From NCBI GenBank assembly GCA_004335835.1, contig RWJK01000354.1, positions 1 through 63,724 of the forward strand: a DNA stretch of 63,724 nt, in the 5' to 3' direction. The DNA comes from Scenedesmus sp. ARA3 (lineage: Eukaryota; Chlorophyta; Chlorophyceae; Sphaeropleales; Scenedesmaceae). This document shows positions 3,909 through 63,724 of this stretch, in pieces. The notes under the pieces were generated by a model. That model searched no databases and was not told the origin of the DNA. It saw nothing but the letters and a program-made list of their open reading frames with translations. The translations under genes and the position numbers were made by a program. The stretch's first letter is position 1; every line of letters begins with the position of its first letter.

Positions 3909-6900
3909 AGGGCAAGGAGAAGTTCCTGGAGCAGTTTGTAGGGGAGGACGACGACGACAGCCAGCAGCAGCAGGAGCACGATGCTGCAGCAGCAGCAGGG
4001 ACCAAGAGCAAGAAGGGACCACAGAAGCCTGCTGAGCACAGGGCGCTGTTTAGGGGCAACCTGGATGACCACTTCAGGTTGGTGTGGTGACATGCCGGAT
4101 GGGTTTGCTGACATGTCAGACGTTGTGATGACACGTTATCATTGCTTGTGCAGCTGTTCCGCTAGATGGTATGATGACCTGCTGCAGCTTAGCTGTAGTC
4201 CTGCACATGCATCAACCTCTCCTGCTGTGTTACTTCTGCTCGCCTGTCCCCCCCCCCAGGCTAGATATCCTGCGCGTTCATCGACTCCTGCTGCTGTGCC
4301 ATCCCTGCTCTTTTTTTCTCTCCATCTTTCACCAGGCTGGGCATCCGCATCACTCGGGGCCACATGAGCCGCCTCAGCCTGCTGCGGTCCTGGTTTGAGT
4401 CGGCACGTGCTGTGACCTCCGCTGCTGTGCCACTTTTGCCCTACACCTGTTTGTCTCGCTCAGGCTATGCATCCTGCACATACATCAACCTCTGCTGCTG
4501 TGCCATTTGTATTTTCTCTCATCCCCTCATTCCCTCACCAGGCTGGGCATCCGCATCACTCGGGGCCAGATCAAGCTCTTTGCAGACTTCCTGCAGTCAG
4601 ACATCATCGTGGCATCACCCGTGGCGCTTGCCACCAAGCTAGCTGAAGATGCAGCAGCAGCAGCCGAGCGGGCAGCAGCCGGCAGCAGCAGGGGCCCTGG
4701 AGGCAGGGGCAAGGGGAAGGGCGGCCACGGCGCTGCTGCTGCTGCTGCTGCCGGTGGTGCGAGTGGGGCGGCAGGCGAAGCAGACTTCCTGTCGAGTATA
4801 GAAATGTGTGTGGTGGAGCGCGCGGATGTGATGCTGATGCAGAACTGGCAGCACGTGGTGACTGGTGGGTGACATGAGTGACACAAGTAGTGCTAGTGGC
4901 GCTGGCAACAATATAGTGACCACCTGACGTTTGGCACATGACAGCTTGCAGTATATGAGGCATGTGGTGGCCTGACTGTGCTTTCCTTTGCAACTGCTGT
5001 GCGCTGTTGCGTTACCGCCGCACCCGTGGCTGCGGCCACCAACAGCAGCAGGATGCGTGCACCTTGCTTGAGCAAGCTTCCCAACTCGACCATCTGCCAT
5101 TGCCGCGGCTGCTGCTGCCGCGGCTGCTGCTGCTGCTGCCGCCGCCTGCAGTGCTGGCGGCGCTGAACCAGTTGCCCAGGCAGCAGCACGGCACCGACAT
5201 CATGCTCTGCTTTCGCTCACCCCCTTCTGCTGCTGCTGCTGCTGCTGCCGCTTGCAGTGCTGGAGGCGCTGAACCAGCTGCCCCGGCAGCAGCACGGCAC
5301 AGATATCATGCGCGTGCGGCTGCACCTGCTGGCCTCTCAGGGGCAGCTGTACAGGCAGACCATCATGAGCAGCAGCTTTGCCTCGCCGCAGCTGAATGCC
5401 GCCTTCAGCAGCCTGTGCTGCAGCCATGCCGGCAAGTTCCGGCTGGTGGCTCAGCCCAGTGGGGTGCTGGGGCAGGTGGTGCCGCAGGTGAGGCTACTGC
5501 TGCTGCTGCGCCGGCTGCCTGTTGTTGCTGCTGCTGCTGCGGCGGCGGCGGTGGCGGCGGCTGCTGCTGCTGCTGCTGCTGCTGCCCCTGTTGTGGCTAT
5601 TTTCAGGGAGGGGAGATGGGGAAGAAACAAAAGGGAGGGTGAGAGGCAGGCAGATAGTATGGCTGCTGTTAGAAATAGTGACACACAATGGCAGTGTGGT
5701 GTTGTGGGTAATATATCACCTGCTGAGCCAGGTCGTGATGCAAGCAGCGCATTGCTCACAGCTGGTGTCCTTTGATCCGCTTTGCGCTGGCACGAAATCA
5801 GTCTGCTGGCGGTTGGAAAAGCAATGCTCTTCTGCAGCTGCATCTATTCAAAATGTCAGCAGCACACAGCACTGTTATTGTCAGCGACCACCAATGAGCC
5901 AACACAACACCTGCACGCTCACCCCGCCGCCCTACCACGCGATATAATACTGCTGCCGCCATCCCTGGCCGCCTTGCTGCCGTCTGCCTGCCTGTCTACT
6001 GCAGGTGCGCCAGCTGTTTGAGCGCTTTGCTGCGCCCTCGTCTGCTGCTGCCGCCGATGCGCGCTTTGAGTTCTTCAAGGCCTCGCTGTGGCCGCGCCTG
6101 GCTGAGGCGGGTGGTGGCGGGCTGCTGCTGGTGGTGCCCAGCTACTTCGACTTTGTGCGACTGCGGTGAGCAAAGATATACATCCTCTTGCTTTTTGTGA
6201 ACCCCGTTTGCCAGGCTGCTGCTGCTGGTGGTGCCCAGCTACTTCGCCTTTGTGCGGCTGCAGTGAGCGCTGTTCCCTTCAATAACTCATCAACATATTT
6301 CATTGCCAGGCTGCTGTCAGATAGTGCCGCAAAGCCGACAAGTACTCCATGTGCATGTGCGTGCTGTGCCCAGCTACTTTGACTTTGTGCGTGTGCGGTG
6401 AGACCCGGGACAGCAACGACTGTGATCCTCTGTCTTGTCAGGTTGCTGCCAATGAGCGTGCGCGTGCGGCTGTCATCAAGTAATCCATATATGTGCAAGT
6501 GTTGTGCTCTTCAGTCAAGTTGTGGTCAGCAGTAGCCGTGCGCAATGTTGTTGTTGGGGTGGCTGCGCAGCTGTTCGCCTTGTGTGTGGGCCTGTGCTCC
6601 ATGCCAACACCATGCGAACATGCACACATCCTCACGCCTCTTTTCTCGCCTGTTCCTTACTTCTTCACACCCGTCTTCCCACCAGGAACTTCCTGAAGGC
6701 CCAGGAGGCCGAGTTTGCGGTGCTGAGCGAGTACTGCAGCTTTGCCGCGGTCACGCGCGCGCGGGCACTGTTCTTCCAGCGGCGCGTGCGGCTGATGCTG
6801 TACACGGAGCGCGCACACTTCTACCACCGCTACCGCATCCGCGGCATCCAGGTGCGCCTGCATGACACGCAGTTGCTGCGGTATGATATTGCGTTGTTGC

Positions 6901-7319
6901 TTGTGAGGTATCGCTGTGGCCGCGTACGAGCCCACTTCTACCACTGCTACCACACCCGCAGCACCCGGGTGACTGCATGCCACTGCGGCGTTGTGTTGCT
7001 TGTGCGCACGTTTGTCGAGTGGAGCATGTAATGTGACATACCTTGCTGCTCCTTTGCTGAGTGGAGCACGCCCTGCTGCTCTGGCTGTTGAGCTGTTTGC
7101 CAATGCACATCTCCGGCCGCTGCTGCTGTGTTTTACAAGATGCCCCCTGCTAGCCACCACTGTAGATGATCTGCTGCAGCAGCTTGCCGTGCCGTAAAAC
7201 ATCATGCTGTACATCTTCTTGCAGAACATCGTGTTCTACGGCCTGCCCAAGCACGCACACTTGTAGCCATCATGCACATTATGAGCTGTTGCACTGTCAT
7301 GCTGTCACTCACTCACTCA

Positions 7320-7380
<61 letters not shown>

Positions 7381-7632
7381 TGCCGCATCACCTTGCAGGA
7401 CATCATGTTCTATGGCCTGCCCGAGCACGCGCACTTCTACTCAGAGCTGGTCAACCTGGTGCAGTCAGGGGGGCCAGGCGGCGGCGCTGGCGCTGCTGCA
7501 GGGGGCCACCACGCCACCATCACTGCACTGTTCTGCCAGTTTGATGCGCTGGCGCTGAGCCGTGTGGTGGGGCAGGGCAGGGCAGCCAAGATGCTGGCGG
7601 CTGGCAGCACCCCCACGTTTGTGTTCTGCTGA
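826..7632 (+). CDS. UTP25: U3 snoRNA-associated protein 25 (UTP25), 11 exons
   Basis: UTP25 (Digestive organ expansion factor family) is a nucleolar SSU-processome component needed for 18S pre-rRNA processing; it resembles DEAD-box helicases but is thought inactive. Exons: 826-1236, 1798-2258, 2560-2662, 2897-3209, 3570-3715, 3911-4077, 4542-4864, 5258-5487, 6005-6165, 6686-6851, 7399-7632; phases join to 904 codons plus TGA. The N-terminal third is acidic and low-complexity (Glu/Asp, Gln, Ala runs). From about residue 534 the family signature begins: LGIRITRGQIKLF, then IIVASPVALATKL, ERADVMLMQNW, YTERAHFYHRY, FYGLPEHAHFY. The first in-frame ATG is 826; a codon at 811 in the same frame is only TTG. 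Introns 6 to 10 contain partial copies of neighbouring exons, listed separately. Family assignment is firm; some exon edges are by eye. Confidence 0.88.
3859..3908 (+). repeat. (CTG)n run abutting UTP25 exon 6 acceptor
   Basis: About 16 CTG/GCT units run directly into the CAG acceptor of exon 6 (exon starts 3911), so the microsatellite is itself the 3' intron end. Confidence 0.9.
4253..4570 (+). repeat. UTP25: 206-bp tandem duplication spanning UTP25 exon 7 acceptor
   Basis: The last roughly 100 bp of intron 6 plus the first roughly 27 bp of exon 7 occur twice, 206 bp apart. The upstream copy has an acceptor at 4335 followed by LGIRITRGH; the real exon starts at 4542 with LGIRITRGQ. Only the downstream copy continues into the conserved domain. 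Confidence 0.85.
5141..5320 (+). repeat. UTP25: Echo of UTP25 exon 8 start
   Basis: An acceptor at 5151 is followed by about 52 bp nearly identical to the start of exon 8 (5258), giving LAALNQLPRQQHGTDIM against LEALNQLPRQQHGTDIM. The copy then runs into intron-like (CTG)n. Period 106 bp. Confidence 0.88.
6109..6405 (+). repeat. UTP25: Echoes of UTP25 exon 9 end (donor side)
   Basis: The exon 9 end encoding LLLVVPSYFDFVRLR with its GTGAGC donor (6109-6171) is followed by two decayed copies at about 6209-6266 and 6309-6402. Each again ends in a GTGAG donor-like site. Confidence 0.8.
6920..6976 (+). repeat. UTP25: Echo of UTP25 exon 10 end
   Basis: About 45 bp inside intron 10 resemble the end of exon 10 (AHFYHRYRIRGIQ), reading roughly AHFYHCYHTRSTR, followed by a gtgact donor-like site. 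Confidence 0.7.
7213..7266 (+). repeat. UTP25: Echo of UTP25 exon 11 start, ending in a stop
   Basis: After an acceptor-like cttgcag at 7218-7224, 42 bp copy the start of exon 11 (NIVFYGLPKHAHL against DIMFYGLPEHAHF) and end in an in-frame TAG. Splicing to this site would truncate the protein by about 65 residues. Confidence 0.85.
7321..7378 (+). repeat. (CTG)19 run in UTP25 intron 10
   Basis: About 19 uninterrupted CTG units lie just upstream of the exon 11 acceptor at 7398, on the sense strand of the gene. Confidence 0.9.
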
Positions 7633-8176
7633 GTAGCGGGGTTCTGCTGAGTAGCGGCGTGCGTGTGTTGGTGATGTCAGCGGCATGCTGAGCGGCGTTG
7701 GCTGCGGTTGCGAGCTACTAGCATAGTGTGAAGTGGGCCTGCTTGGTGTGGCTGCTGCCTCGTGCGCAGGTGGGCCGGAGTGCTTGAATGCTATGTTTTT
7801 TCTGCAGCAGAAGCTGTGGCACGGCCGACCTGCATTACAACGGGCAGTGTGATACGTGGTGCGTGAGTTTGGTATGTTTGGCTCCAGAGCAATGCTGTGC
7901 AGGTCGTTTCTGGCAGCAGCTGTCCACACTCTTGTGACGTGTCTTCAGCCCTGAACCACCCTAGGGTTTGGGGCTGCGTGTGCCGGCTCGCCAATTGTTT
8001 CGCCGTCTGATACGTACGTGCCGTGGTCTGGCATTGATGCCTGATTCTGGCTCGTGCTACTCCAAGCTCATACAGCAGTACACACCTGTAAGTTCACGTA
8101 CAATACTTCCTAAGTGATCTAGCTGCAGTCGTACGCACCTTTGAAATAAAACAAATCCCAATCAACTTGTGTTGCA
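7633..8176. other. Intergenic UTP25 / WD40 gene
   Basis: No coding exon is seen. A short direct repeat (gtagcgg.gt) follows the UTP25 stop, and a TGTAA motif lies at about 8090, a possible poly(A) signal. Confidence 0.45.
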
Positions 8177-9517: not shown

Positions 9518-9549
<32 letters not shown>

Positions 9550-12345
9550 CGCATTCCTGGGCCCAGACGAAACAGAAGATGATAATAACGAGGATGAGGA
9601 GGAAGAAGAGAGTGACGAAGAACCAAGTGGTCCCCCAATGCTGTCATACATCTTCAGCCTGGCTGCTGCCGAGGGCACCGCCTGGCTGGCGGGGTCCTGT
9701 GCTGACGGCATGCTGCGGCTGTGGGACGCTGGGCAGGGCGCGCTACAGGAGGTGGCGGCGGTGCAGGTGGGCCCACCCCATGTGATTGCGTGTACAACAA
9801 ATTAGGTGTGTTGGATGCAAGGCGTGTAGGCTGGTGTGATGTGGGGAGTGGTGCTGGGCTGGGCAGGGCGCGCTGCAGGAGGTGGCCGCGGTGCATGTGG
9901 GCATGTGGCTGCTGCTGCAACAAATGTAGGCAAGGTATGCAGCAGTGCGGCTGTGGGATGCTGGGCAGGACGTGCTGCAGGAGGTGGCCGCAGTGCACAT
10001 GGGCATGTGGCTGCTGCTGGGGCAACAGATTTGTACGGTGCGTGGTGAAGTGATGCTGTGTGCTGGGGAGAAGCATATACAGGGACTTCGCGGCAAAGTG
10101 TAGTGTGACAAGTGGGGTTTGGAGTGATGCTGTGTGCTACTGCGACCAGTAAGTAAAAGAGTGAACACCAAAGAACAACATAGAACACGATGCAGTTATT
10201 TGCTGCTGTGTGTGCTGTGTGCTGTCGACAGAGAGTTTGCATTTGTGCTGTGTGTTGTGTGCTCCTTCGCAGGTCCATGTAGGCGACATGGGCAGCGTGA
10301 ACACCACAACACCACAAAACACCATGGACACAACACATCTGTCACTTTGCTGCTGTGTGTGCTGTGTGCTGCTGCGCAGGTGCACGTGTGTTACTTTGTG
10401 CCGCAGCAGCCATGGCTGGTCCTCACCACCAGCAAGTCCAGAAAGTACAAGAGTGAACACTGCAAAACACCATAGGCACAACAATTCTGTCACTTTGCTG
10501 CTGTGTGTGCTGTGTGCTGCTGCGCAGGTGCACGTGGGCGACATGGGCAGTGTATGTTCCTTTGTGCCGCAGCAGCCGTGGCTGGTGCTCACCATCAGCA
10601 AATCAGGGCAGCTGGTGCTGCAGGATATACGGCTGCTGGGTCAGGCGCTGCTGGCGCAGCAGCTGCAGGGGCCAGTATATGACATGGCTTGGACAATGCA
10701 GCAGCAGCAGCAGCAGGACCCGCAGGTGGTGCCAGGGACTGCTGCTGCTGCTGCTGCTGCTGCTGGTGGTGGTGGTGGCGGCGGTGATGGCGGAGCTGGT
10801 GCTGGCCTGCAGCTGTGTGTGGTGGGCAGGGACAGCTGCGTAAGGCAGTACGCATTCAGCAGGGAGGCTTTGCTGGCAGGTGATCACTGGTGGGCTGTTG
10901 AATGGTGTGTGTCCATGTGCTGCAACTTTTGTCCGGCAGACTCTCACTTACATGTGCGGGCGGCGCTATGCTTTCAGCAGAGTGGTGCTGCTGGTATGTA
11001 AAAACTGTTGCATGCTAATCGGAGTGTGTGTGATGTAAAGTCTGCCGTTCTTGTGTTGAACTTACAACTGTGAATGCACTTCTGCTGCGGGCATATGAAC
11101 AAGTAACTGTTGGCTGCTTTATCTATCTTGGCTGATTAGCCAGGCAAAAAGATGCCATGACTGAGCTACATAGCGCCATAGCAGCTAGCAGCTCACCCTT
11201 GTGTGAATAGCTGATGCTGCATGTCTGTGATGGGGCCCCAACACATGTTTAGGTGCAAGTGCTGTGCAACAGCATGGAGTGGCTGTGTTGTTGCTCTCTT
11301 TGTCTCATTGAGAATAATTGCACTCGCCTGTTGTTCTGTGTGCTTCCAGGCCACCTGTCGGAGCCTCAGCAGCAGGCAATGCCGGAAGCGTACAGCGGCA
11401 GGCTGCTGGCACTGGCAGCAACAGCGGACGGCAGCACACTTGCTGCTGCTGGGGAGGCTGTGCCTGCCAGCACACTAAGGCCTGCCAGGCCCCAGCAGCA
11501 GCAGCAGCAGGATGCGTCAGCAGGCCTAAGCAATGCAGGTGATGGCTTAGGTTTCAAGCCTGCTGCAAGCTCTGCTGCTGTTCCTGCAGAGACTGCTACA
11601 GGTGCAGCTGTCACTGCACAGCAAGCGTCAGGTGCTGCTGTGGCTGCTGCAGCTGCTGCTCCAGCTGTGGTTTCTAGGAGGCGCAAAGGTCGCAGCGCAC
11701 GGCCTGCTGCTGGTGCTGCTGCTGGTGCTGCAGTTGACCTTTTCAACATGACAGGTGAGGGTGGTGCCATTGTGAGGCGTGTGGCGGGCCAGCGTAGCAT
11801 GAGCATGGGCGCTTCAATTTGTGTTTCTTGAAGCTTGAAGCAGTCGCAGCAACAGCTGTTGCTTTCAGGCACATCACTACTGAAGGTGTCAGAGCACAGG
11901 CTGGTTGATAGTGTCATTGTGGTGTGGTGTGTTGTGCATGGTGACGGCCGACTGCTGCAGTTGCTGCTGCTGCTTCCTCTAGCTCCCTGCAGCTGCTTTG
12001 GCTTAGGTTCCTCTTGCTGTGTGCTGCTGCCCTGCATGTTGCGATCACCTCGCAGACGATGCAGGTGCTGATGACGCTGACGCAGCACAAATGCAACAGC
12101 AGCGGCAGCAGCAGAAGCAGCAGCACCAATCACTAGCAGTGGGTCAGCAACAAGCAGCAGCAGGCAGCAGCAGCAGCACGCAGCAGGGTAGTGTGGCACA
12201 GCCGGAGAACGCTGCTAGTGCATCAGCAGCCACAGCAGCAGCTGCTGTTGCTGCTGCTGCCGAGGAAGTTCAACTGCCTGCCTGTGCTGCTGCTGCAGCT
12301 GGCATACTGATGAGGGCGCCTCTCTTCACATGGAGTGCCAGTTGA
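8177..12345 (+). CDS. WD40-repeat protein, 7 exons
   Basis: Exons 8177-8344, 8444-8519, 8681-8743, 9054-9766, 10528-10879, 11350-11754 and 12056-12345 join in phase to 688 codons plus stop. WD repeats are clear: GHTGRVFGLAYHP...VRVW, GHSAEVLRVAWSPDGK...VRLWQV, GHPEEVYGLKF...LFLWDL, and LAGSCADGMLRLWD; further blades follow around TISKSGQLVLQD and CVVGRDSCVRQY. A Gln/Ser/acidic insert splits the middle of exon 4, and the C-terminal 200 residues are Ala/Gln-rich. WD40 propellers are protein-interaction scaffolds; I do not recognise the orthologue and assign no pathway. The last exon rests on phase and splice signals only and is the least certain part. Confidence 0.75.
9713..10015 (+). repeat. 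Echoes of WD40 gene exon 4 end
   Basis: The exon 4 end encoding LRLWDAGQGALQEVAAVQ (to 9766) recurs in intron 4 at about 9851-9900 and 9945-10012. The later copies share an extra intronic block (gggcatgtggctgctgctg). Confidence 0.85.
10255..10580 (+). repeat. Echoes of WD40 gene exon 5 start
   Basis: The sequence before and after the exon 5 acceptor (10527) occurs twice upstream, at about 10255-10300 and 10355-10440. Each has a tgcgcag/ttcgcag acceptor; the first reads VHVGDMGSV and the second carries the VPQQPWLVLT segment. Confidence 0.85.
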
Positions 12346-48339: not shown

Positions 48340-48374
<35 letters not shown>

Positions 48375-49532: not shown

Positions 49533-49568
<36 letters not shown>

Positions 49569-52500
49569 GCGCCTGCTTCTGTTCAGGTGAAGCTGCTGCC
49601 GAGCGAGGAAGGCTTTGACCCCGAGGCCTACCTGGCCATCTTCCACGAGGCCAGCAGCGCCCCACAGCTGGCTCAAGGGCTGCGCGTGCTGGAGCACGAG
49701 CTTGGGGAGCGCACCGGGCAGCTCAAGCAGCTGGTCAAGCAGAACTTTGAGCGCTTCATCAGCTGCAAGACCACCATTGATGATATATACGTGAAGCTGC
49801 GCCGCATCGAGTCCACCTCCACAGGGGTCAGCACCGAGGTGCTGTACAGCGCCATACAGCAGGTGCGCGGGTGAGAGGATGGTGCTGCAGGCAATGTTGC
49901 ACAGCAAGTGCAGCCCATGCGTCACACACACTGCGTGTTGCCTGCATAAGGACCACAAGCTTTGCAGAGTGCGCGCGCACACGCATGGACTTTCTGCAGC
50001 ACGCCCAGCTCCCAACAATGGTATGCTGTGTTGTTCCTGCAAACTTGTGTGCGCGTGCATGTGCAGGTGCAGGATGGCGCGAGCGAGGTGTTTGGGCCCA
50101 TCCTGGAGCGCAGCGCGCTTGCGTTCTTTACTGTCTGCTGCACCCCCAGCTGACAACAATCGTAATCCCTGTGTTTTCTGCAAATCGTGCATGAGCGCAG
50201 GTGCAGGATGGCGCGAGCGAGGTGTATGGGCCCATCCTGGAGCGCAGCGCCAAGGCGGAGCGCATCCGCAGCGTGCAGCTGCTGCTGAGGCGCTTCCAGG
50301 GCCTGTTCAGCGCGCCGCAGCGCATCAGCGCACACGCGGCAGCACGCGACTTCGAGCAGGTGCGTGTTTTTTTTTTGGAGGCGTGGTGTGGTTTGCGAGG
50401 GCATTGTAGCTGGGCAGCAGGCAATTGAAGCTGGTTGTGTTGCTGCAGTAAGCAAAATATGGGCTGAGATATCCATGCGGGCGACGTGCAGCCTGTTGTA
50501 ACTTATGAGCTGCTCTTGTGGCTGCTGCTGCTGCTGCACCCCTGTGCCTCGCTGCTGGCAGCACCTGACACCCTGCTGTTGCTGCTGCTGCAGGTGACTG
50601 CCGAGTTCAAGCGCGCCAACGGGCTCATTAAGCCAGGGCCCAAGACTATCAAGGTCTGGGCGGCGCTCTACGCTGAGATAGAAAAGGTGCGCGGCATCAG
50701 TGAATTGAAAGTAGGCGTGCAGCAGGCGGGCTCGCAGATGGAGGAGCATGCCCGCAGGTTATGAGCTGGGCCTGCAGCACTACCTGTGTGTTGCAGCGCA
50801 ATACGCACACACATACATCCAAGCATCACTACATGTCACACCATCTGCTTGCTTCTCACCGTGTTCCCTGCGCATTGCACCACATACTCCACCTACATTA
50901 CGAAAGCGCGCTGCAGCCACCAACAACTCCTGCCGCTGCGCTTACGTCTGCACCCCATTCACCCCATTTTACTTTTTCCACACGTGCAGCGCGTGTCAGA
51001 GGTGTACCAGCAGCTGCAGGGTGAGATCCAGGACCCCCGCCTGCCAGCAGCATCAGCCAGTGAGCTGGTACAGCACATGCTGGCGCTGCAAGCAGAAGGC
51101 CTGCCAGCAGCACAGGGTCAGGATCCTCTGGCGCTGCTGCTGGCTGCCCGTGAGGCAAGGTTTGCAGCAGCGATGCAGGCGGTGGCGGCTGACCATGAGC
51201 GGGCTGTGGGGAGGCTGCGGGCTGCCATGGCTGCAGCAGCAGCAGATGAGAAGATGCAGGTGGGTGGTGCAGCTGTAAGGCGTGCCTGGTAGCGTAGGTT
51301 TAGCTTCTGAGCTAGTGCAGCACATGCTGCAGATAGGCCTGCCAGCAGCACAGGGTCAGGACCCCCTGGCGCTGCTGCTGGCTGCAAGGGAGGCCAGGTT
51401 TGCAGCAGCAATGCAGGCGGTGGCTGCGGATCACGAGCGGGCTGTGGGGAGGCTGCGGAGCGCCATGGCTGCAGCAGCAGCAGATGAGAAGCTTCAGGTG
51501 GGTGGTGCAGCTGTGGCGCGCACCAGCCGCGTTAGTTCGCATTGAAACACGTGTCGTATACTGTTCTAACATCTGCTTGTCTTTGGCTGTGCAGGACCCA
51601 GCAGCTATATCAGAGGCCCAGCTGCTCAAGTGGCGAGGCAGCTGGGACGGCAGCAGCAGCAGCAGCACGATGCAACCAGGCCTGCCAGCAGCAGCAGCTG
51701 TGGGCGGCAGCAGCGCTGTCTTCGCGCGCAGCATTGCAGGCTACCGCGGCAGCAGCGCAGCAGCAGCAGCAGCAGCTGGCGCTGCAGGGCCAGATCTGCT
51801 GGGGTCGATCATTGGTGCTGCTGGCATCAGCGATCTGGGTTTAGGGCTCAGGAGCTTTGCGGGTGGGGTTTTGGGTGGCGGTTTACCGGGCAGCAAGCAC
51901 TTGTCCGAGGTCGCGCCGCTGTCTGGGCTGCAGCCGCCGGCCCCCAGGTCCCGGCTAGTGCAGGACACCCGCTGTACTGCTGGGCAGCTGCTGTACCTCA
52001 AGTGAGCGTGTGATCAGGATTGCCCAGTAGCTTCCTGTGCTGCCTGTACTGCTCACACATGATGTACTGCCAGTGGTGCCAGACATTTTGTACCGCTTGT
52101 ACTGCTCATGCAGCTTGCAGCTGCCAGCATGCCCTTGCTGTCGGCATCCACTTGGGACATGTCGTGTTACATGCGTAGCTGCCCATCACCAACACCACAA
52201 GCTTATCTTTCAAGTCATGTGCTGCGTCGCTGCTTCAGGAACCTGCAGCGCCACTCAGAGGTGTTGCTGGAGTGCCTGCCGGGCCTGTGGCAGGCTGCTG
52301 GCACCAGCAAGCTGCAGCTGCCCCTCAACCTGCCCGCATCAGCAGCAGCCAAGCTGCAGCAGACGCTGGCAGGGGCAGCAGGCATCCTGCAGCGCTTGGT
52401 CAGCAGCTACTGCAAGGAGGTTGGCGCGCTGGCAGCTGCGCTGGCTGGGGTGGGGCCACTGAGGGAGGCGCTGCTGGCTGCTGCTGAGGTGCGCTGTGCT

Positions 52501-52996
52501 ATTGTCCTGCCATTGCGGTGTTGCTGCGTTGTGCGCTGTGGTACATGGCTGTGCGCAAGCATGTTTGTGCATGGCGGGTGGTTGTTAATGTGCACCAGCT
52601 GCGTCTGATGGCTCCGCTGCGGTTTTGTGTTTGCGGCGTTGTGCTGGGGTGTTCAGCTGTGCTCAAGTGCTGGTTTGAGGTGGGGTGGTGCTGGCTGGGG
52701 CGCTGGCTGGCTGCTGCGGAGGTGCAGCAGGCATCCTGCAGCGCCTGGTCAGCAGCTACTGCAAGGAGGTTGGGGCGCTGGCGGCTGCACTGGCTGGTGT
52801 GGGGCCGCTAAGGGAGGCGCTGCTGGCTGCTGCCGAGGTGCGGCGCAGCTGCGCTTGGCTGATGTTTTGTGTTGCGATGTTTGAGCATTGTGTGCTGTGA
52901 TGTATGACTGTGCTTGTGTCAGGCGGCGGCGGATGATCAGGCCAAGGGCAGGGCATGGCGGGCCAAGCTGGTGGCTGCTACTGCGCCAGCACTATA

Positions 52997-53029
<33 letters not shown>

Positions 53030-56000
53030 ACTGCGCGCTGCCAGCTGTTGCTTGTGCGCAACACATCGCCTGCTAACAACCAGCAGCCTGCTGCGTATAT
53101 CACCCTGCGTTGTGCCTGCAGGAGCTGGCGTACACCATCCAGCAGCTAGAGGCACAGGAAGCACCCGGCCCTGCCCTCGAATCAGTGCAGGGCCTGCTAG
53201 GCCAGCTGGTGGCGTCTGGCGTGCAGCAGCTGGCTGGCCACCTGCATGGCGTGCCTGCCTGGCTCATTGCAAGGGAGGGCTGGCAGCTCAGCGTGACACA
53301 CAGCGGCAGCCAGCCCATCACCATGATGCCTGAGCAGCTGCAGGTGGGCGCAGTGATTTGTCAATGGTGGTTGGGATGGTTGATGTTGTGCTTGCAAGCT
53401 GCTGTGTTGCTGTGTTGCTGGTCGGCAGCCCATCACCAAGATGCCTAAGCAGCTGCAGGTGGACGGCTGGGCAAGGTTTTGCGGCATGTCTGCTGCTTTG
53501 TTGATGTGGTGCTGTTCTGATGTGGTGCTGTGCTGCTGTGTTGCTGTGCTGCTTCGTGGCGTTCCATCACTATAATGCCGCAGTAGCTGCAGGTGCGCAG
53601 GCATAGGCTGCAGTTATCCACACTGCCTTTCAGACTGGCGTTGACTAGCAGTTGCTCGAGCGCTGCCGCAACTTCACCACACCTGCGCTGCATGCATGCG
53701 CCTGCCTCCGCATGCTGCTGACGACCAAGTAGTGCCTGTCTTTTGTCTGTCTGTTTGCAGGAGGAGGTGACTGTGGCGATGCAGTACTACCAGCAGCTGC
53801 TGGGCTGCAGCACCGGCAGCAGCACCGGCAGCCTCAGCAGCAGCACCTCAGCAGCCCGCGGCATCACAGCAGATGTGACCACCAAGCCTATCCGTGATGC
53901 CTACTTCACGTGCTTGGAAGACACCATCAAAACGTGTAAGGCAGCAGCAGAGGAGCTGCGACCAGCAGCAACAGGCGCAGCAGCAGCAGCAGCAGCAAAG
54001 GAGGCTAGCAGCAGCAGAGCGACTGGCTCGTCTCCCACCAAAGACAGCGGCAGGGAGTCGAGTCCAGTGCGGCGGCCTGGGCTCTCAGCGGCAGCTGCAG
54101 CAGCAGTCCTCGGCCAGGACATACTGTTCGATGGCAGCGAAGGTGATACTGCAGCAGCCGCTGCAGGTGCTGCTGCCGGGGATGCTGCTGCTGCTGCTGC
54201 TGCTGGCGGGCTGAGCTTTGCGCTGGGCCTGCCAGGCAGTGTGCTGGGTGCTGTGCTGTCTGACGATGTGCGGCTGCTGCTGATGAGCAGCAACCTGAGC
54301 TTCATGCGGGAGCGGCTTGTGGGCAGCCTCACGCAGCGCTTCCTGCTGGTGCTGACAGGTGGGCGGTTCTGCAGGACACCGTGCATCATATAGTCATTGT
54401 TTTCATAGAAGCAGTTGGGAGGACAGTTGTAAAATTGTAGCTGGACAGCTGCGGCACATGATGAACAAGTGCTGCTGGTTGCAAGGGCCTTGCGCGCATA
54501 TAGCAGTGCAGCAGCTGCAGCTGTGTGGGTCAAGTTGCGAGGGAAGGGATGCAAGAGTCCTATCAAAGCGCGCAGCTGCGCTACAGCGAGCAGCACCTAT
54601 CGACGCGCGCAGCTGCGCTACAGTGAGCGTTGCGCAGGCTGTTTGATATCAGCTGCTGCTGCAGGTGCTTTTGCACAGGATTGCCTGGAGTTTGAAGCAG
54701 TTCTGCTGCCACGTGCGCATAATCAGTGTGCAGCATGGCACCATTGTGTGTTTGTCACAGCTGCATCACTTGCTGCTGTTGCTGCTGCTGCCGCCAGGCG
54801 AGGTGGCCGCTGAGGTGGAGCGCTGCTCACGCTACGTGGTGAAGCTGGCAGGGCGCCTGGACTCAACCATACAGGTGCGGCCTGGGATGCGTGTTCCAGA
54901 GATGTTCTCAGACCTGCTGCCGCTGCGGCAGCGCCGGCGGCGGCGCACGTATGGCAGCAAATACAGTCGTCTTGGATTTTTGCTGTGTGCATGTATGTTA
55001 GTACGCCCTGCTTTGCTGTCTGGCGGCTGCAGCTAAAGTTCAAGAACTGCGCACTGTTGGTCTGGGCGCTGACGCGCATGCCTCCGGCTGTACACTGCTT
55101 GGCGGGCGCACCATCCGGCGCATCGCCGCAACCTTCAGCAGCAGTTGGCTGGCACAGCTCAGAGCCAGTGCACCACATGCATGGCCCCCCTCACCTGCTT
55201 GAGTGTTTGCCGTGTTTTAGCCATTTCAAACAAGCTGCACCGTGTGTGCTTTCTCCATCAACCGCAGGCTGTGCATGGCGTGTACTTGGAGCGCAAGCGG
55301 CGCAGCATTGACCGGCTGCTGGGCAGCTACATAAAGCCAGACGGCCAGCCTGTGGGCGTGCCGCCTGACCTGCGGGAGGTGTCGCCGCATGCGCAGCAGC
55401 TGGTGCAGCTGGTGGCTGGCATTCAGTCGGAGACGTTCACATATGCCAGGTGGGGGCGGTGCTGGGTAGTGCAGTGTGTTGAATAGTGTATCGAACAGTG
55501 TATTGAACAGTGTGTTGAACAGTGGGTCGGACAGTGGAACGGACAGTGTGTTGCAGGGTTGCAATGCAGGGCTGCTATGGGTTATGGGGAGGGCGTGTTG
55601 AAGTGTGCATGTGCTGTCCGTGCGTGAGGACCCAAATCTGCACACACGCATGTGCTGTAGCGCATGCAGTTGTGCGTTGCCGGAGCTGTTGCTGCTTGAA
55701 TGTATCTTGTGCTGCCAGACCTGCTTTGCTGCCAGTTGTGACCTGATTTTGCAGCGTTCTTACCCTGATGTGAGTGTTGATTTTCAGTGCAATGGATGCT
55801 CATTGTGTTGCTGCTTCCGTGTGTGCGCTGCATCCTTGCGCTGCACCCCTGCAGGCTGTTCATGCAGCAGCTGCTGCATGCTGCTCTGGAGCACTTGGGC
55901 AGTGCACTGTCATCAGCGTTCGCAAGCCTGCCGAATGCTGGAGCTGCTGCTGCTGGTGGTGCTGGTGGTGCTAGTGCTGCTGCTGCTGGCTGCCCTGTAG

Positions 56001-56702
56001 AAGCCTTGGGCCAATACTTCATGGACCTAGTGTACCTGGATGCAGTGCTCAGCAAAGCAGGTGAGTGTTGGGTGTCTGCAGTACTGTTCAGCTGCTGCGT
56101 ATCTGGATGCAGTTCTCAGCAAAGCAGGTGGGCATTCATTGTTTGAAGTGCTTCATGGTTGGTGTATTTGGATGCAGTGCTCAGCAAAGCAGGTGGGCTG
56201 TGCAGCGCGCACAAACTGTGTGAGTGCACGCGTGGCGCAACAGATGTTTGCAGTGCTGTACCAAGGAGTACGCGTTCAACTTCTGCGGTATGTCGCTGCT
56301 GTTAGGACCAGGTTCAAACTGGACATGTTGCCCCAGGTACTTGCCATGGCATGTTTGTGAAATGTGAAGCACGAGAATCTGCTTTCGTCCTGGGCGCTTA
56401 CAGTGTGCAGGTAGTGTTCACTCCTACAGCAGCATCCACAGAAAGTCGTTTTTTGTGACCTGGACTTTGCCGCAGTGCACTTGCTGCTGCTCCAACGCAC
56501 CACATCTTTGTGTGTTGCTGCAGGCCCGCAGAGCTTGTCTGTTGACATGGCAGCTGCCTACCAGCTGCTGTCGGCACGCATGTGCGCTGGCGCTGGCGGC
56601 AGTGCTGCTGCTGGGTCGCGCGCTGCTGCCGCTGCTGCTGAGACACCGCTTGCGCGCAGCCTGCTGACCATAAAGGATCCACAGGAGCTTATCAAGAAGT
56701 GA
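47228..56702 (+). CDS. SEC5: Exocyst complex subunit SEC5 (EXOC2), 17 exons
   Basis: SEC5 is one of eight exocyst subunits that tether secretory vesicles to the plasma membrane. Exons: 47228-47395, 47877-48062, 48378-48491, 48749-48982, 49587-49862, 50201-50359, 50594-50686, 50990-51259, 51595-52001, 52239-52488, 52923-52970, 53122-53343, 53761-54358, 54798-54874, 55268-55449, 55855-56060, 56524-56702; they sum to 1222 codons plus stop. The N-terminus is acidic (DDISFVEEEEEED). The family core spans exons 5 to 8: EEGFDPEAYLAIFHE, QLKQLVKQNFERFISCKTT, IDDIYVKLRRIE, AERIRSVQLLLRRFQ, AEIEKRVSEVYQQLQ. Exon 15 holds IDRLLGSYI and AGIQSETFTYA of the C-terminal part. Algal Ala/Ser/Gln inserts enlarge it relative to plant SEC5. 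Four to six of its introns carry exon echoes. The last two junctions are the least sure. Confidence 0.85.
48322..48376 (+). repeat. (CTG)n-(CTGC)n run abutting SEC5 exon 3 acceptor
   Basis: About 7 CTG units change into about 8 CTGC units that run into the ctgcag acceptor at 48377. Confidence 0.9.
49168..49640 (+). repeat. SEC5: Five-copy tandem array of SEC5 exon 5 start
   Basis: gtgaagctgctgcc-gaggagggctttgaccc recurs at about 49171, 49253, 49361, 49469 and 49587 (real exon). The last four are 108-118 bp apart. Each unit contains the exon start (VKLLPSEEGFDPEAYLA), an intron-like (CTG)n and a gcgcctgcttnngt-cag acceptor. Identity rises towards the real exon; the first copy is most decayed. 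Confidence 0.94.
49533..49567 (+). repeat. (CTG)n in the last SEC5 echo unit
   Basis: About 11 CTG units; earlier units of the same array carry 4 to 8, so the length varies between copies. Confidence 0.88.
50056..50235 (+). repeat. SEC5: Echo of SEC5 exon 6 start
   Basis: gtgcaggatggcgcgagcgaggtgt(t/a)tgggcccatcct occurs at 50067 and at the real exon (50201), 134 bp apart, each after a gcag acceptor. The copy runs into a TGA after a few codons. Confidence 0.9.
51300..51497 (+). repeat. SEC5: Near-complete second copy of SEC5 exon 8 (possible cassette exon)
   Basis: The last two-thirds of exon 8 (GLPAAQGQDPLALLLAAREA to ADEKMQ) is repeated with about 95% identity after a ctgcag acceptor at 51332 and before a CAG|GTGGGT donor at 51498. 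From 51333 to 51497 is 165 bp, open and in phase 0, so inclusion would add 55 residues without a frame change. Confidence 0.85.
52716..52837 (+). repeat. SEC5: Second copy of SEC5 exon 10 3' half (possible cassette exon)
   Basis: RLVSSYCKEVGALAAALAGVGPLREALLAAAE is encoded again at 52742-52837 after a ctgcag acceptor and before a GAG|GTGCGG donor, 96 bp in phase 0 (32 residues). Confidence 0.85.
53310..53600 (+). repeat. SEC5: Donor-side echoes of SEC5 exon 12
   Basis: The exon 12 end (SQPITMMPEQLQ with gtgggc donor at 53344) recurs at about 53427-53462 (SPSPRCLSSCR frame-shifted; cagcccatcaccaagatgcctaagcagctgcag) and, more decayed, at about 53562-53594. Confidence 0.85.
56035..56195 (+). 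repeat. SEC5: Donor-side echoes of SEC5 exon 16
   Basis: ctggatgcagtgctcagcaaagcag|gtg occurs three times: the exon end at 56060, then copies ending at about 56128 and 56194, each again followed by a gtg donor. Spacing is 66-68 bp. Confidence 0.92.
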
Positions 56703-57388: not shown

Positions 57389-60054
57389 ATGCTGCAGACG
57401 CGGCAGCTCAGGCCTCAGCTGAGTGCCAACAAATGCAGTGGCATACGCCCGTTTCCTGCAAGCCCTGCTGTCACTGCAAGGCACCACGCAAATAGGCCGA
57501 GTGCCAGCAACTCACTCACTCCACGAGCTCCGAGCCCTAGTGGCGCCCGAAGGGACTTCACGCTTTGCCAAGCAGCCAGCACCATAGATACTGATGTAGG
57601 AGTGCCTACAAAGCTTACTGGCGAGGCGCGGTCGCACGAAACGGATGTTGTGATCATTGGTAAGGACAGCCAGGCAACAGAGGCAGCAGCAGGCCAGACA
57701 TGCAGTCAGTAACTGAGCCATTCAGAGCCAAATTGACATTTGAAGCCCAATTCTACTGTATCAGGATCTGGCATAGGCGGCCTGTGCTGTGGAGCACTGC
57801 TGGCCAAGTATGGAGTCAAGGTGGGCATGTTCAGGGGCACGCTGCTGCTGCAGCAGTGGTGTGATGTCACTGCTGGCCACTAGCTCTGACAGGTGTTCCA
57901 TTTGGATCCCATGGCACTCATGGTCAAGCAGCATAAAGCCCCTTCCTTCACACTGACAAGTGGCTCTATACCTACCCACACTGCGCACACAGCAAGCACA
58001 TGTGTGGCAGTAACTGACATGCCTTGCAGCATGTTAGCGTGCGAACATTATTGCAAACTGCAGCACTGCAGTCCTGCGATTATCACTTGGCACAACATGC
58101 CTTGATTATTACAGCTTATGTACATCAAATAAAGCTTTCACCCACAGCTCAGATGTCTGCCACCGCTGCTGCAGGTCACTGTGGTGGAGAGCCACAGCGA
58201 GCCAGGGGGCGCAGCACACACCTGGCAGCGCGGCGGCTACCACTTTGAATCAGGGCCCAGCCTCTACAGCGGCATGAACGGTGCGGCTCACCACCACCAG
58301 CAGCAGCAGCAGCAGCAGCTGCAGCAGCTGCAGCACACAGTACAGCTGTCCTCAGGCTATGCCAGCAGCTACCCTTGCAGTGCCTCCTGGTGCTGGTGGT
58401 GCTGCTTTCTGGGTAGCTGGCAGTATGCTTGCGGCCATTGCAGCAGCAGCAGCAGTAAATAACAGCAGCAGGGCAGCTATAAGGGAGCGAGTCAGCGCAA
58501 CTACAGCTTGAATCAACAGCAGCAGAAAAGAATGTGAATCTGCAAGGACCAGAACATCTGCCACCAGCAATGCTATGGCACATGCATGGTCAGGAAGGCT
58601 GTGCCTGTTCGTCAGCCTGCCAGCAGGCTCTGCTGTGTCCTGGGCTGAAGGCCGGCTGGCCATGTTATTGAGACTGAGGTTGCTACTTCCGGCTGCCTTG
58701 CTTGTTGGCTTCCATGTGTGCCTGTTGCGCCCCATGCCGTACACCCGCCCCAACCACTGCTACTGTCGCTGCTGCCGCCACTGCTGCTGCCGCCGCTGCT
58801 GCAGCGCGGGGCAAGGATGCCAACCCGCTGGCGCACGTGCTGCAGGCCATTGGGGAGCCGCTGGAGTGTGTGCAGTACAACACCTGGAACGTGCTGGTGC
58901 CTGAGGGGCAGTTCCTGACAAGGGTGCGAAAGCGCGCTGGCAGCGCCAGCACTGCTGTAAACCTGCTGCACTACGTTGCACTACATTGATGTATGTACAC
59001 TCGAGCAATTTTAGGCCGCTTGTCGCTTGTCGCTGAGCATTGACACGGACTGGCTACCAGCGTCTATCTGGTGGCTGTGCTGCACTGCTAGCCATTTCAG
59101 CTGCAATCTGCAGGTTATTCGCATCTCCCTGGCTTGCAGCTGCCGGATGTTACGGCATCACACCATGACAACACACATTTTATTCTTCATCAGCGCGGCC
59201 ACGCTCCTAGTCACCTCAGATGTGTGCCATCTTCCACCACTCGCAGATCGACAATGACAACTTCCTGGACGTGCTGAGCCAGGTTTGCGTCAACCTTTGA
59301 TTTCAGATTGTGCGCAGCGCAACTACCTCTGACAGCTGCCTGTTCGCTGCCACTACTCGCAGATCGGCAATGACAACTTCCTGGACGTGCTGAGCCAGAT
59401 CCGCGGGCCTGGCTCGCCAGCCATTGCGGAGTGGCGGCGGCTGCAGGAGGTGATGCGGCCCCTGGCCAAGGCGGCGGTGCTGCTGCCACCAGTGGCCTTC
59501 AGGTGGGTGCGGCGCGCAGAGCAGCAACACCAGCAGCAGCAGCAGGAAACAGAGCCCCTCATCCGACGTCTAAATGCCTACAAATTGAAGTGATTGGGAT
59601 TGGGTTCTGGCCTTCTTGTGAATAAGGTTGTCACACCGCCTCAATTCTGCACTGCCCCGCAGGTACGACCCTGGGGTGCTGCTGTCGGCCATTGGGCGCT
59701 ACCTGCCTGCCCTGGCCACTGGCGGCACTGACGCCATGAAGCTCACTGGACCCTTCTCAAAGGTGATGCAGTGAAAAGGCAGATTCAAAGCATGGTACAT
59801 GCACAAATGCGCACCTGCAAGCAATGCTGGACTAGAAGCCTCCTTGTCCAAAGGCTCCTGGCTCTCGGAGTGGGCTGATGCAGTGCATTGGATGGGTGTG
59901 TGGAGGTGTGTGGTGTTAATTGGATGTGAGCGGGTGGGGCGGCAAATGATTATGAACAGTGCACCAATTGGTGTCACTGCTTTACTCATGTATGTCTACA
60001 CCTCCACCTGAAGCCGACACACACACTTTGTTGGTGTCCTGCCGCTGCCGTTGC

Positions 60055-60102
<48 letters not shown>

Positions 60103-62204: not shown

Positions 62205-62245
<41 letters not shown>

Positions 62246-63724
62246 GCTCAGGCCTGCCTGACGACCTGGAGCTGCACCACATCATCGTCAACGACTGGTC
62301 GAGGGGCGTGGATGCGGAGCAGAATGTGGTGCTCATCTCCATCCCCTCAGTGAAGGACCCCAGCATGGCCCCAGCAGGCAAGCACTGCCTGCACGCCTAC
62401 CTGCCAGCCACGGAGCCCTACCACCTGTGGAAGGGCCTGGACAGGAAGAGGTGGGCTGCAATTAATAACAGCTGTGCAGTGGATTGAAATGCACAGCTGC
62501 GTGCAGAGGTAGTGCAGCCACTGATATGTAGGCTTTTTGCTGCTGTAGCAGAGGCAGCAGGGCACAGCTATCTGTTTGGCGACACGGAATGAGCCTACGA
62601 ATGCCACACTGATGCTGCGTAGCAATTGACACACCCTTGGTGCTGTGCTCGCCACGCGCCGTCTGTGTGTCCTACTGTGGCGCGTGCACACCCTTCACCT
62701 GCAGCCCTGATTATGCCAAGCTCAAGGAGGAGCGTTCTCAGGTGCTGTGGAAGGGCGTTGAAAAGATCATCCCAGACATACGCAGCAGGGCAGAGGTGAG
62801 CCATATTGCTGCTGCACATATGCCGCAAATGTTTTAAAAACACCTCCATCCGCACTTGCTGCAAAACATGTACAAGCTGCTTCACAGAGTTGGGGACCTC
62901 TGTTGCTAGCAGGAGTTAGAAGCTGAGCCGCACTCTGCATTGCACGGCATGTGATCCCTGAGCCCTGCACCAGATCAGATGACTTGCTGCCGGATAAATG
63001 CGCCTGCATGACAGCCCAATTGGAACACCAGGAGACTTTGCGCGGTGTTCTCCTGGTCCAGTTTTGCTTGGAGGTGCGCAGCTTTGCAGTACTGTGTAAA
63101 ATCAACTAATCAACTAATTACATGCTCTGCCGCGCGTGCAGGTGAGCTTTGTGGGCACGCCGCTGACGCATGAGCGCTACCTGCGGCGCGCCAGGGGCAG
63201 CTACGGCCCCGCCTTCAAGGCTGGCGAGGCGCTGTTCCCAGGTGAGTAATGCGGCGGGTGGATTACGCCCTGCTTTCAAGCCTGGCGAGGCGCGTTTTCC
63301 GGGTGCATAATTGTACGCAAGGGCTAGCCTCCACTGCTGCCAGCCGCTATGGGCTGGGGATGGCGGCAGGCACTGTGCTAGTGCGTGACGGGGTGCTGAG
63401 CAAGTGCAGGGGCTTACCATGTACGTGGATAACACCTGTATGGGGAGAGAGGTCCAGGATAACACCTGTATGGGTGCGGGGTGCCAGCCAGACCTGTGGG
63501 GGGCAGATGTGCTGAGGGGCCGCGGCAGCAGCAGCAAAACCTTTGCTCTCACACCTGAAGAAGAGGGGTTACACGGTGTGCACAGGCACCTACGTTGCAA
63601 CAAACACCCGAAAACCTGGAACGTCGCAGATGACTCAGCAAAACAGGCTGTCACTCAAGGCGACTCACCCCAGAAAGTCTCTCTGTGTGTGTAACTTGAC
63701 ATATGGCCTTGCAGGCAAAGCCGT
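57389..63724 (+). CDS. CRTISO-like FAD-dependent oxidoreductase (3' end outside window)
   Basis: Closest family in memory is the plant plastid carotenoid-isomerase-like flavoprotein (Arabidopsis At1g57770 type), related to prolycopene isomerase CRTISO and phytoene desaturases; its substrate is not settled. Exons: 57389-57659, 57765-57820, 58175-58280, 58805-58923, 59363-59502, 59663-59762, 60115-60228, 61107-61186, 61373-61588, 61808-61872, 62252-62450, 62705-62795, 63142-63241, 63715-end, giving about 555 residues so far. Residues 1-80 look like a transit peptide. The FAD dinucleotide motif VVIIGSGIGGLCCGALLAKYG lies at about residues 87-107, split by intron 1. Other landmarks are ESHSEPGGAAHTW, DPFIRNWLDLLSFLLSG, DFPVGGSQAM, KAVVSNASVWDT, IIVNDWSRGVDAEQNVVLIS and FVGTPLTHERYLRRARG. 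The C-terminal GDS...PG FAD-contact region is missing because the window ends. Confidence 0.85.
59238..59284 (+). repeat. Echo of CRTISO-like exon 5 start with its own donor
   Basis: After a ctcgcag acceptor (59246), 36 bp encode IDNDNFLDVLSQ, a near copy of exon 5 start INGDNFLDVLSQ-type sequence at 59363, followed by a gtttgc donor. The 36-bp block is in phase 0, so it could act as a microexon. Confidence 0.85.
60057..60101 (+). repeat. (CTG)n run before CRTISO-like exon 7
   Basis: About 15 CTG units lie 13 bp before the exon 7 acceptor (60114). Confidence 0.9.
60456..61040. mobile_element. TTAA-flanked MITE-like element in CRTISO-like intron 7
   Basis: Perfect 18-bp terminal inverted repeats (GGTCATGCATACGTAATT, 60460-60477, and its complement 61019-61036) are each bordered by TTAA (60456-60459 and 61037-61040). 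Inside the ends both sides have a G6/C6 run. The element is 577 bp without the TTAA, has no coding frame, and its composition lacks the CTG/CAG bias of its surroundings. TTAA target duplication is typical of piggyBac-type transposons; the terminal sequence does not start with the usual CCC, so superfamily is uncertain. It contains a telomere-like ttttaggg (60539-60546) and ccctaaaccctaggg. Confidence 0.85.
62206..62244 (+). repeat. (CTG)13 run before CRTISO-like exon 11
   Basis: Thirteen CTG units end 7 bp before the tcag acceptor at 62251. Confidence 0.9.
63250..63308 (+). repeat. Donor-side echo of CRTISO-like exon 13
   Basis: The exon 13 end (ccgccttcaaggctggcgaggcgctgttccca|ggtgagtaatg, to 63241) is followed by a copy at about 63265-63305 (ccctgctttcaagcctggcgaggcgcgttttccgggtgcataa). 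Confidence 0.85.

Follow-up and report, generated by a model that had tools for sequence, protein, structure and literature searches.

Exon-edge echoes in Scenedesmus sp. ARA3, probably for the most part relics of recurrent small tandem duplications

Exon-edge echoes are extra partial copies of an exon edge together with its adjacent intron sequence, and they are confirmed as a real feature of the DNA analyzed here, a stretch of 63,724 nucleotides from Scenedesmus sp. ARA3 contig RWJK01000354.1 (the window). The echoes are local, direct, genome-wide, arrayed and tandem where traceable, and on average constraint acts on one of the copies, the other being near neutral. They are mostly, with a probability of roughly 0.7, the leftovers of recurrent small tandem duplications. 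Exon tandem duplication is a known kind of event, and what is new here is its density and spacing.

Exon-edge echoes in the window

Self-BLAST of the window (E ≤ 1e-3) returned 36 pairs, 33 direct and 3 inverted. All 33 direct pairs are <500 bp apart, and no direct pair >500 bp apart was found by this search. An edge-by-edge test, built on a home-made gene model with a threshold of p ≤ 0.01 and 100 null draws for each edge, found an echo at 21 of 189 exon edges, where about 2 to 4 were expected; its reverse-complement control found none at the same 189 window edges. The copies are thus of one orientation, as an earlier sequence-only reading of this DNA had reported, and they are adjacent, as in local tandem (internal gene) duplication. 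That reading had counted at least 19 places in six genes. Each edge it listed does have a same-strand copy (Table 1), but the list amounts to 18 edges in five genes, for which the evidence combines the edge test with the BLAST pairs and exon numbers are matched by position alone. It had also placed the copies always in the intron beside an exon edge, which is too strong as a rule, because 39 intron-intron and 11 intergenic cases occur among the 170 segments of the wider scan described below. Elsewhere in the window, the three intronic copies at 21559-22136 are snoRNA-like, and a predicted coding sequence contains a repeat at 16518-17050.

Table 1. Exon-edge echoes in the window, with the evidence for each.
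Feature	Position	Strand	Evidence
UTP25 acceptor-spanning pair 4215-4365 / 4415-4571, exon start near 4542	4215..4571	+	BLAST 72.6%; edge test 55 vs null 16.3
UTP25 acceptor-spanning pair 5123-5205 / 5229-5311	5123..5311	+	BLAST 91.6%; edge 5293 score 28 vs 19.8
UTP25 donor 6165, two downstream echoes 6218-6268, 6366-6402	6121..6402	+	BLAST 94.1%, 91.9%; edge test 78 vs 22.4
UTP25 donor 6851, echo 6927-6983	6810..6983	+	BLAST 79.7%; edge test 45 vs 15.8
UTP25 acceptor 7399, echo in preceding intron	7189..7399	+	edge test 55 vs null 14.5
WD40 gene array, donor 9766 / acceptor 9981; pairs 9714-9772 / 9946-10004, 9728-9917 / 9858-10019	9714..10019	+	BLAST; edge test, both edges
PURL tandem 62-bp pair across acceptor, predicted exon start 20856	20736..20866	+	TRF period 62; BLAST 92.8% (of BLAST and edge test, BLAST only)
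PURL acceptor-spanning pair, exon start 22832	22712..22884	+	BLAST 84.3%; edge test 76 vs 16.5
PURL acceptor and exon start, three times (24204, 24306, exon 24417)	24204..24458	+	TRF period 105
PURL acceptor-spanning pair 29492-29581 / 29609-29691, acceptor near 29667	29492..29691	+	BLAST 76.7%; BLAST-only support
SEC5 acceptor and exon start, ~4 tandem copies, period 109, acceptors near 49258/49593	49210..49641	+	TRF 3.9 copies; BLAST; edges 49341, 49593
SEC5 acceptor-spanning pair, exon 50207	49989..50250	+	BLAST 79.2%
SEC5 donor-spanning pair 51061-51276 / 51308-51514	51061..51514	+	BLAST 86.6%; edge 51259
SEC5 donor-spanning pair 52371-52493 / 52720-52842, donor 52495	52371..52842	+	both copies apparently constrained
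SEC5 donor 53343 pair, absent from the earlier list	53311..53595	+	BLAST 70%; edge test 56 vs 16.2
SEC5 donor 56060, tandem echoes	56017..56198	+	BLAST; edge test 57 vs 16.9
CRTISO-like gene acceptor-spanning pair; exon in use most likely from 59363	59231..59398	+	BLAST 94.2%; retrained gene model; edge test 67 vs 16.3
CRTISO-like exon 63142-63241, donor echo in next intron 63242-63369 (63308 end taken from the earlier reading)	63142..63308	+	edge test 42 vs null 14.0

Extent across the genome

The suggestion that echoes are a genome-wide feature was upheld: 263 kb of sequence taken from 23 sources held 168 direct pairs. Predicted exon edges carried an echo in 96 of 682 cases, about one in seven, against 13 in the reversed control. 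A gap-free scan of the same 263 kb gave 170 direct segments (128 exon-touching and 42 exon-free), and a comparison with shuffled sequence gave 0 in one block-shuffled copy. With the window left out, 134 segments of the scan were direct and a single line was inverted. Arrays numbered 95 in the 263 kb. Loci L001, L002, L013 and L023 were left out of the counts, and L024-L030, chosen by similarity to a SEC5 stretch, served in gene-model training only and lie outside them. Exon labels beyond Pfam- or PDB-matched stretches come from an unsupervised gene model. Removal of 33 pairs that were redundant or trinucleotide-like (>0.55) reduced the 168 to 135, and those with at least 8 codons number 102.

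Tandem copies and exon borders

Arrays and the spread of identities support recurrent local duplication in the same orientation with varied decay, as had been proposed. A further copy lies one period off in 27 of 70 first-order pairs, and a hidden middle copy is present in 14 of the 33 pairs of the second spacing peak; repeated rounds have thus left arrays, the SEC5 array of ~4 copies among them. In 42 of 91 pairs the intervening sequence is similar to one of the two flanks (p ≤ 0.05), where ~9 would be so by chance. Among pairs offset by 96-160 whose copies are separated by no less than 15 bp, such likeness was seen in 20 of 48 (z ≥ 2, better of the two sides). The other 49 of the 91 pairs showed no tandem homology beyond the core, perhaps through decay. 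Cores of 95-100% identity often adjoin unrecognizable flanks, a pattern that relics of tandem duplication would produce only where a core had survived by luck. Young duplicates are scarce, which counts against the relic account: among 43 pairs that are intron-only or intergenic, 3 have an identity of at least 92%, and two of these 3 are taken to be a snoRNA cluster.

The tie to exon-intron borders holds in part. Edge-spanning pairs account for 110 of the 135, whereas random placement in the same loci gave a mean of 73.8 (sd 5.8, highest 88 in 200 runs). This excess is partly one of survival, because a selected exon copy keeps an old pair recognizable. Just 1 pair lies entirely inside one exon. 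A possible process, the copying or conversion of the core only, limited to exons, was suggested by sharp edges at donors and was set aside as unnecessary, because flanks are often homologous and the last few bases can be put down to the donor/acceptor consensus.

Copy spacing

The distance between copies clusters near 124 bp and near 244 bp, with few values below 96 bp. The unit near 124 bp could be set by a mutational ruler, for instance lesions where positioned nucleosomes end or flaps of Okazaki size, and this account has perhaps one chance in four. It is favored by the 80 of 170 segments at 85-165 bp, of which the exon-touching share (64/128) does not differ from the exon-free share (16/42, p = 0.21), and edge-spanning pairs above random placement are also in its favor. 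Direct-repeat-mediated insertions are moreover common in RAD27-lacking yeast, for which the available part of one source quotes an earlier range of 5-108 bp (PMC5677150). Against it, the cluster is absent from exon-free segments lying >200 bp from any exon-touching pair (4/25 at 96-160 bp, against 63/128 exon-touching; p = 0.002), although this p value is too small because 17 of the 25 distant segments come from two loci. A ruler confined to exons was considered and not adopted, the difference emerging only with that distant subset; the spacing may belong to exons or to all DNA.

Short units are rarer at exons. Below 85 bp there were 4 of 128 exon-touching against 6 of 42 exon-free segments (p = 0.016), and a limit of 96 bp gave 4 of 128, compared with 4 of 25 distant exon-free ones (p = 0.025); with the other gene model the latter comparison became 5/132 against 3/25 (p = 0.116). 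The median length of introns near an echo, 336 bp by one gene model and 251.5 bp by the other, exceeds the usual period. Quantized intron lengths were unsupported by a periodogram under six settings (best p = 0.10). Plain slippage does not predict the spacing.

Substitution pattern and constraint

Substitution rates were compared in pairs with at least 25 exon and at least 25 intron columns, using columns exon-labeled in one copy only. Codon positions 1, 2 and 3 differ at rates of 0.082, 0.066 and 0.186, against 0.181 in intron (34 pairs); the first gene model gave 0.105, 0.087 and 0.178 against 0.175 (35 pairs). Third positions thus change at about the intron rate and first and second positions at about half of it, which indicates one constrained and one drifting copy. 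Single pairs show the same contrast between exon and intron parts, with 1/30 against 36/121 differences in the UTP25 pair at 4215..4571 and 1 of 44-47 against 15 of 72-75 in the SEC5 pair at 49989..50250.

The non-synonymous share of changes is expected to be 0.58-0.62 for a neutral echo and 0.21 to 0.35 if both copies are constrained (omega 0.1 to 0.2). It was 0.46 over all 102 pairs, between these values, and 0.515 (129/250) in the 47 pairs whose partner is <10% exon-labeled, which is below the neutral value beyond sampling error (z about -2.7). It was 0.37 in the 26 pairs where exon labels cover half or more of each copy. Because all three shares fall below the neutral value, part of the pairs appear constrained on both sides; double constraint is not the rule, as the 0.515 of the 47 pairs lies above the both-constrained range, and may be kept in a minority. 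A dN/dS of 0.24 over the 102 pairs had suggested coding constraint on echoes in general, a view rejected on the neutral expectation and on the exon-versus-intron columns. Two pairs stand out against mostly neutral relics among the 56 tested: SEC5 52371, with 9 synonymous and 0 non-synonymous changes (p = 0.0002 under a neutral echo), and L022 1716 (/1934), with 12 and 0 (p = 0.00002). The SEC5 51061 pair has 6 synonymous and 3 non-synonymous changes.

Many echoes could instead be working alternative exons or exon edges, both used and giving the same protein, a rather improbable account that draws on these same two pairs and on the nearness of 0.37 to the 0.35 expected at omega 0.2. The latter class is, however, inflated, because exon labels on partners favor coding-like copies, and pairs with unlabeled partners are closer to the neutral expectation. 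An internal AG|GT is shared in 3 of 4 pairs with at least 5 synonymous and 0 non-synonymous changes, a remark made after the fact; by its sequence, either copy of SEC5 52371/52720, which shares such a site, might be spliced in. Overall, sharing AG|GT has no effect on the share (0.43 with, 0.46 without; Fisher p = 0.64), and it was rejected as the cause of double constraint. Where no splice site was predicted in the partner, 49 of 71 donors still have GT and 56 of 71 acceptors still have AG, so that a fifth to a third of partner sites have decayed. Both PURL echoes also meet a stop at once in the exon frame, 24204 after EKA (translated) and 24306 after EKH (read by eye), and were counted in favor of relics. 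The PURL exon stretch at 24417 aligns once with an FGAM synthase of known structure.

An assembly artifact, in which two diverged haplotypes or strains are interleaved and the echo is the other allele's exon edge, is quite unlikely. Local, same-strand copies would suit it, as would pairs such as SEC5 52371 and L022 1716 that differ at synonymous sites alone. Two alleles should nevertheless both be constrained, whereas the observed shares exceed 0.35, and three- or four-copy arrays with a broad spread of identities misfit two alleles. A search of the alga's own genome with one 1951-base SEC5 query (51000-52950) gave at least 41 matches (40 of 89 candidates scored); among the matches listed, the query itself was full length and the 40 others were ≤180 bases, with no second allele elsewhere. 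A mobile element or introner carrying exon edges has regular spacing as the sole point in its favor and is very improbable, since the window holds no direct copy >500 bp from its partner, the other matches listed for the SEC5 query fall mostly in the stretch near 51630-51800, and dispersed similar introns across genes were seen neither among the window pairs nor among those matches.

Proposed origin and significance

Under recurrent small tandem duplication, a stretch, most often of ~100-150 bp, would be copied head to tail. Where the duplication runs over an exon edge, only one of the copies would remain in the message after splicing and its partner would land in the intron, lengthening it by one unit per event; more rounds would yield three or four copies. 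The intronic copy would drift at or near the neutral rate and the exon copy would be kept by selection, because of which the exon part would be recognizable long after the intron part blurs. The DNA event was most likely the repair of a staggered break by fill-in and joining, or replication slippage. As for the spacing, units too short for removal by splicing were possibly lost by selection near exons.

A more novel and tentative reading is that splicing acts as a size filter. Survival of an edge duplication would depend chiefly on a unit of sufficient length for excision as a one-period intron, with the donor joining the AG|GT of the next copy in a manner like recursive splicing, and rare pairs (SEC5 52371/52720, L022 1716/1934) would use both copies for the same protein. 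If true, the spacing would have its lower limit at about 100 bp, its mode at about 124 bp and a harmonic at about 244 bp, and introns would grow in units. The paucity of short units at exons could be used to test whether the persistence of DNA duplications depends on filtering by the splicing machinery. Echoes also form a dense, datable record of possible intron lengthening, each with its own internal control, since constraint acts on the exon copy and mostly not on the echo. With roughly one in seven predicted exon edges carrying an echo, duplication would rank among the main sources of intron DNA here.

Relation to known systems

The sequence-only reading knew of no named description of such a feature, which does not stand for the underlying event: intron origin by tandem genomic duplication, including that of exon segments, has been reviewed (PMC3443670) and is reported in Drosophila (PMC2891723). 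No account of exon-edge echoes as a genome-wide feature of algae appeared in searches of open-licence PubMed Central. The review's references include work by Gao and Lynch from 2009 on tandem genomic duplication as an intron source.

In the system of that review, as far as its available part describes it, a segment with coding sequence is likewise copied and the extra copy spliced out, with AG|GT sites allowing the copies to be spliced (PMC3443670). The new intron there arises within an exon, whereas existing introns here seem to grow at their edges and with a preferred spacing. A shared internal AG|GT occurs in only 13 of the 102 pairs; a one-period new intron at AG|GT is not the general case, and L022 1716 and SEC5 52371 could be single instances. 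The Drosophila study, in the portion available, attributes novel intron positions to tandem duplication and intron sliding, similarly with duplicated exonic sequence beside introns and one copy intronized; 5 of its 31 near intron pairs probably arose by tandem duplication (PMC2891723), compared with the array count given above for 263 kb.

Fill-in and end joining yield small tandem duplications in mouse and human cells, and these are also short, direct and head to tail (PMC8355091). They follow induced breaks, and the available text gives no 124-bp preference. Direct repeats near splice sites are a further likeness in lying near intron borders; those described in the accessible part of that source measure 4-30 bp and relate the two borders of one intron (PMC11782384), whereas the echoes, tens to hundreds of bp long, each repeat a single edge.

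Distribution of exon echoes

The window, at 57.1% GC, is one entire contig (63,724 bases) of an assembly of 87.3 Mb in 1567 contigs. The genome is without annotation, and exon labels come from an unsupervised gene finder, written for the purpose, whose training set was the window together with loci fetched from elsewhere in the genome; retraining it with introns required to be at least 100 bp long gave a second gene model. The PURL protein, pieced together manually from the two gene models, could be aligned with a solved FGAM synthase across 1285 residues; exons outside this alignment are predictions, some of them surely wrong.

Self-BLAST of the window returned 33 direct pairs, every one less than 500 bp apart, and 3 inverted; 20 other places (170 kb) yielded 125 direct pairs, 119 of them less than 500 bp apart, and likewise 3 inverted. 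Across 23 sources (263 kb), 168 direct pairs fell within 1.5 kb, leaving 135 after removal of redundant or trinucleotide-like pairs. A separate gap-free scan detected 170 direct segments, with 134 direct segments outside the window against one inverted line, and none in one block-shuffled copy. A test of exon edges looked for echoes, the extra partial same-strand copies of an exon edge and its adjoining intron sequence. Within the window, 21 of 189 edges had one, against 0 of 189 in the reverse-complement control; outside the window the figures were 75 of 493 and 13 of 493. Donors (49/335) and acceptors (47/347) carried echoes at similar frequency. Every exon edge for which the sequence-only reading had listed copies was matched, by the window self-BLAST or by this test. 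Of the 135 pairs, 110 span an exon edge, where random placement predicts 73.8; part of this excess arises because the exon copy decays more slowly, which does not explain the spacing.

The 135 pairs are unevenly spread, with a maximum of 14 per 10 kb and none in 4 of the 23 sources. These four loci, L009, L018, L019 and L033 (10, 10, 5.7 and 10 kb), have predicted genic shares of 90, 65, 37 and 64%, respectively; L009 holds one direct and one inverted pair, more widely spaced.

Genes and individual features of the window, with one pair from the fetched locus L022
Feature	Position	Observation
UTP25 gene		PF22916, PF06862
WD40 gene		
FGAM synthase gene		PURL of the sequence-only reading
SEC5 gene		PF15469
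FAD amine-oxidase-like protein gene		CRTISO-like only as a label of the sequence-only reading
SEC5 pair	52371/52720	9 synonymous, 0 non-synonymous
L022 pair	1716-1808 / 1934-2026	12 synonymous, 0 non-synonymous
Triple repeat, PURL intron	21550-22136	Copies 92-110 bp long, sharing 90-95% identity
SNORD24 snoRNA, PURL intron	28275-28351	50.7 bits, gathering 41
Direct repeats, ~108 bp (77%)	32133-32725	Either side of the hairpin-like stretch
Long hairpin-like stretch	32351-32506	MIR856 precursor model, 45 bits, E 2.6e-9; gathering score 297
Two predicted related-looking genes, opposite orientations	42666-46484	Inverted match 43408-43728 / 45922-45601, 67%
Tandem repeat, ~207-210 bp	16106-17317 (minus)	Inside a repeat-rich predicted protein

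Tandem structure and spacing

In 42 of 91 cases, the stretch separating the two copies looks like the flank that tandem duplication would have left there (p<=0.05 on one side or the other, where chance alone would give about 9). Of 70 first-order pairs, 27 are accompanied by a further copy one period off, and 14 of 33 second-peak pairs conceal a middle one. In PURL, an acceptor and exon start are present as three copies in a row; in frame with the exon, the first echo translates as EKA*, ending in a stop, and the second, by visual inspection, as EKH*, and this stretch of exon aligns once with the solved FGAM synthase.

Offsets of the 170 segments number 10 below 85 bp, 80 at 85-165 bp (mean 124.6, sd 15.3), 10 at 166-199 bp, 46 at 200-300 bp (mean 244.0) and 24 above 300 bp; the smallest offset in each of 95 arrays gives 10, 60, 7, 17 and 1 in the same classes. 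Among exon-touching segments the offsets are 29, 32, 62 and 84 bp, and then 102 bp and up. The 36-bp scan window costs some power at short units, a loss judged too small to account for this gap. The 85-165 bp class holds 16 of 42 exon-free and 64 of 128 exon-touching segments, a lack of difference (p=0.21) that speaks against a ruler specific to exons. In favor of such a ruler are the broader offsets of exon-free segments more than 200 bp from exon-touching ones, with only 4 of 25 at 96-160 bp against 63 of 128 (p=0.002), although two loci supply 17 of these 25. The preferred, though unproven, explanation is that selection removes short units that splicing fails to cut out.

Constraint and drift of the copies

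Substitutions were compared in those pairs whose alignment holds 25 or more columns of each kind, exon and intron; codon positions were scored in columns labelled exon in one copy only. Introns differ at 0.181 per site and codon positions 1, 2 and 3 at 0.082, 0.066 and 0.186 (34 pairs); the first gene model gave 0.175 and 0.105, 0.087 and 0.178 (35 pairs). With one copy drifting and one constrained, third positions should equal intron and first and second positions about half of it.

Using a mutation spectrum measured from non-coding pairs, the expected non-synonymous share is 0.58-0.62 for a neutral echo, and 0.21 (omega 0.1) or 0.35 (omega 0.2) for two constrained copies. The observed share was 0.515 in 47 pairs whose partner lacks an exon label, 0.486 in 29 intermediate pairs and 0.372 in 26 pairs labelled exon in both copies; thus, the 102 pairs of at least 8 codons, at 0.458 overall, form a mixture. 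Pairs with an unlabelled partner are closer to the neutral value, yet fall under it by more than sampling error. Among 56 pairs with at least 5 changes, 6 were too synonymous at p<0.01 and none too non-synonymous. The two extreme pairs lie in SEC5 and L022. The L022 copies encode an identical 31 residues, including DTTGAGDAF, which we take to be a PfkB-type motif, share the site AAG|GTGGAT, and are candidates for exchangeable twin exons.

Proposed origin and intron growth

A local break or slip would probably duplicate some 100-150 bp head to tail. Fill-in with end joining is described as a well documented route to small tandem duplications (PMC8355091), and replication slippage as an alternative (PMC5677150). 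One copy would then probably be thrown out by splicing, and the intron would lengthen. Median introns are 336 bp near echoes against 236 bp without in one gene model and 251.5 against 223 bp in the other, with 269 against 233 bp in the exon-edge test, a difference that is partly length bias. Tetradesmus obliquus, for which 57% GC and a mean intron of 462 bp are printed (PMC5966456), resembles the window in base composition, a likeness that serves as a lead only; the corresponding intron means in that source are 270 bp for Chlamydomonas and 230, 284 and 302 bp for three further algae of the sphaeroplealean group.

Other repeated elements

Two of the three copies of the PURL intron repeat match snoR69Y over a guide-like stretch (20.5 and 19.8 bits, E 0.6-0.9), far under the gathering score of 45. 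The copies carry motifs presumed to be C-box and D-box-like, and the triple is probably a C/D snoRNA cluster rather than an exon echo. The direct repeats and the hairpin-like stretch between them perhaps represent a small mobile element.
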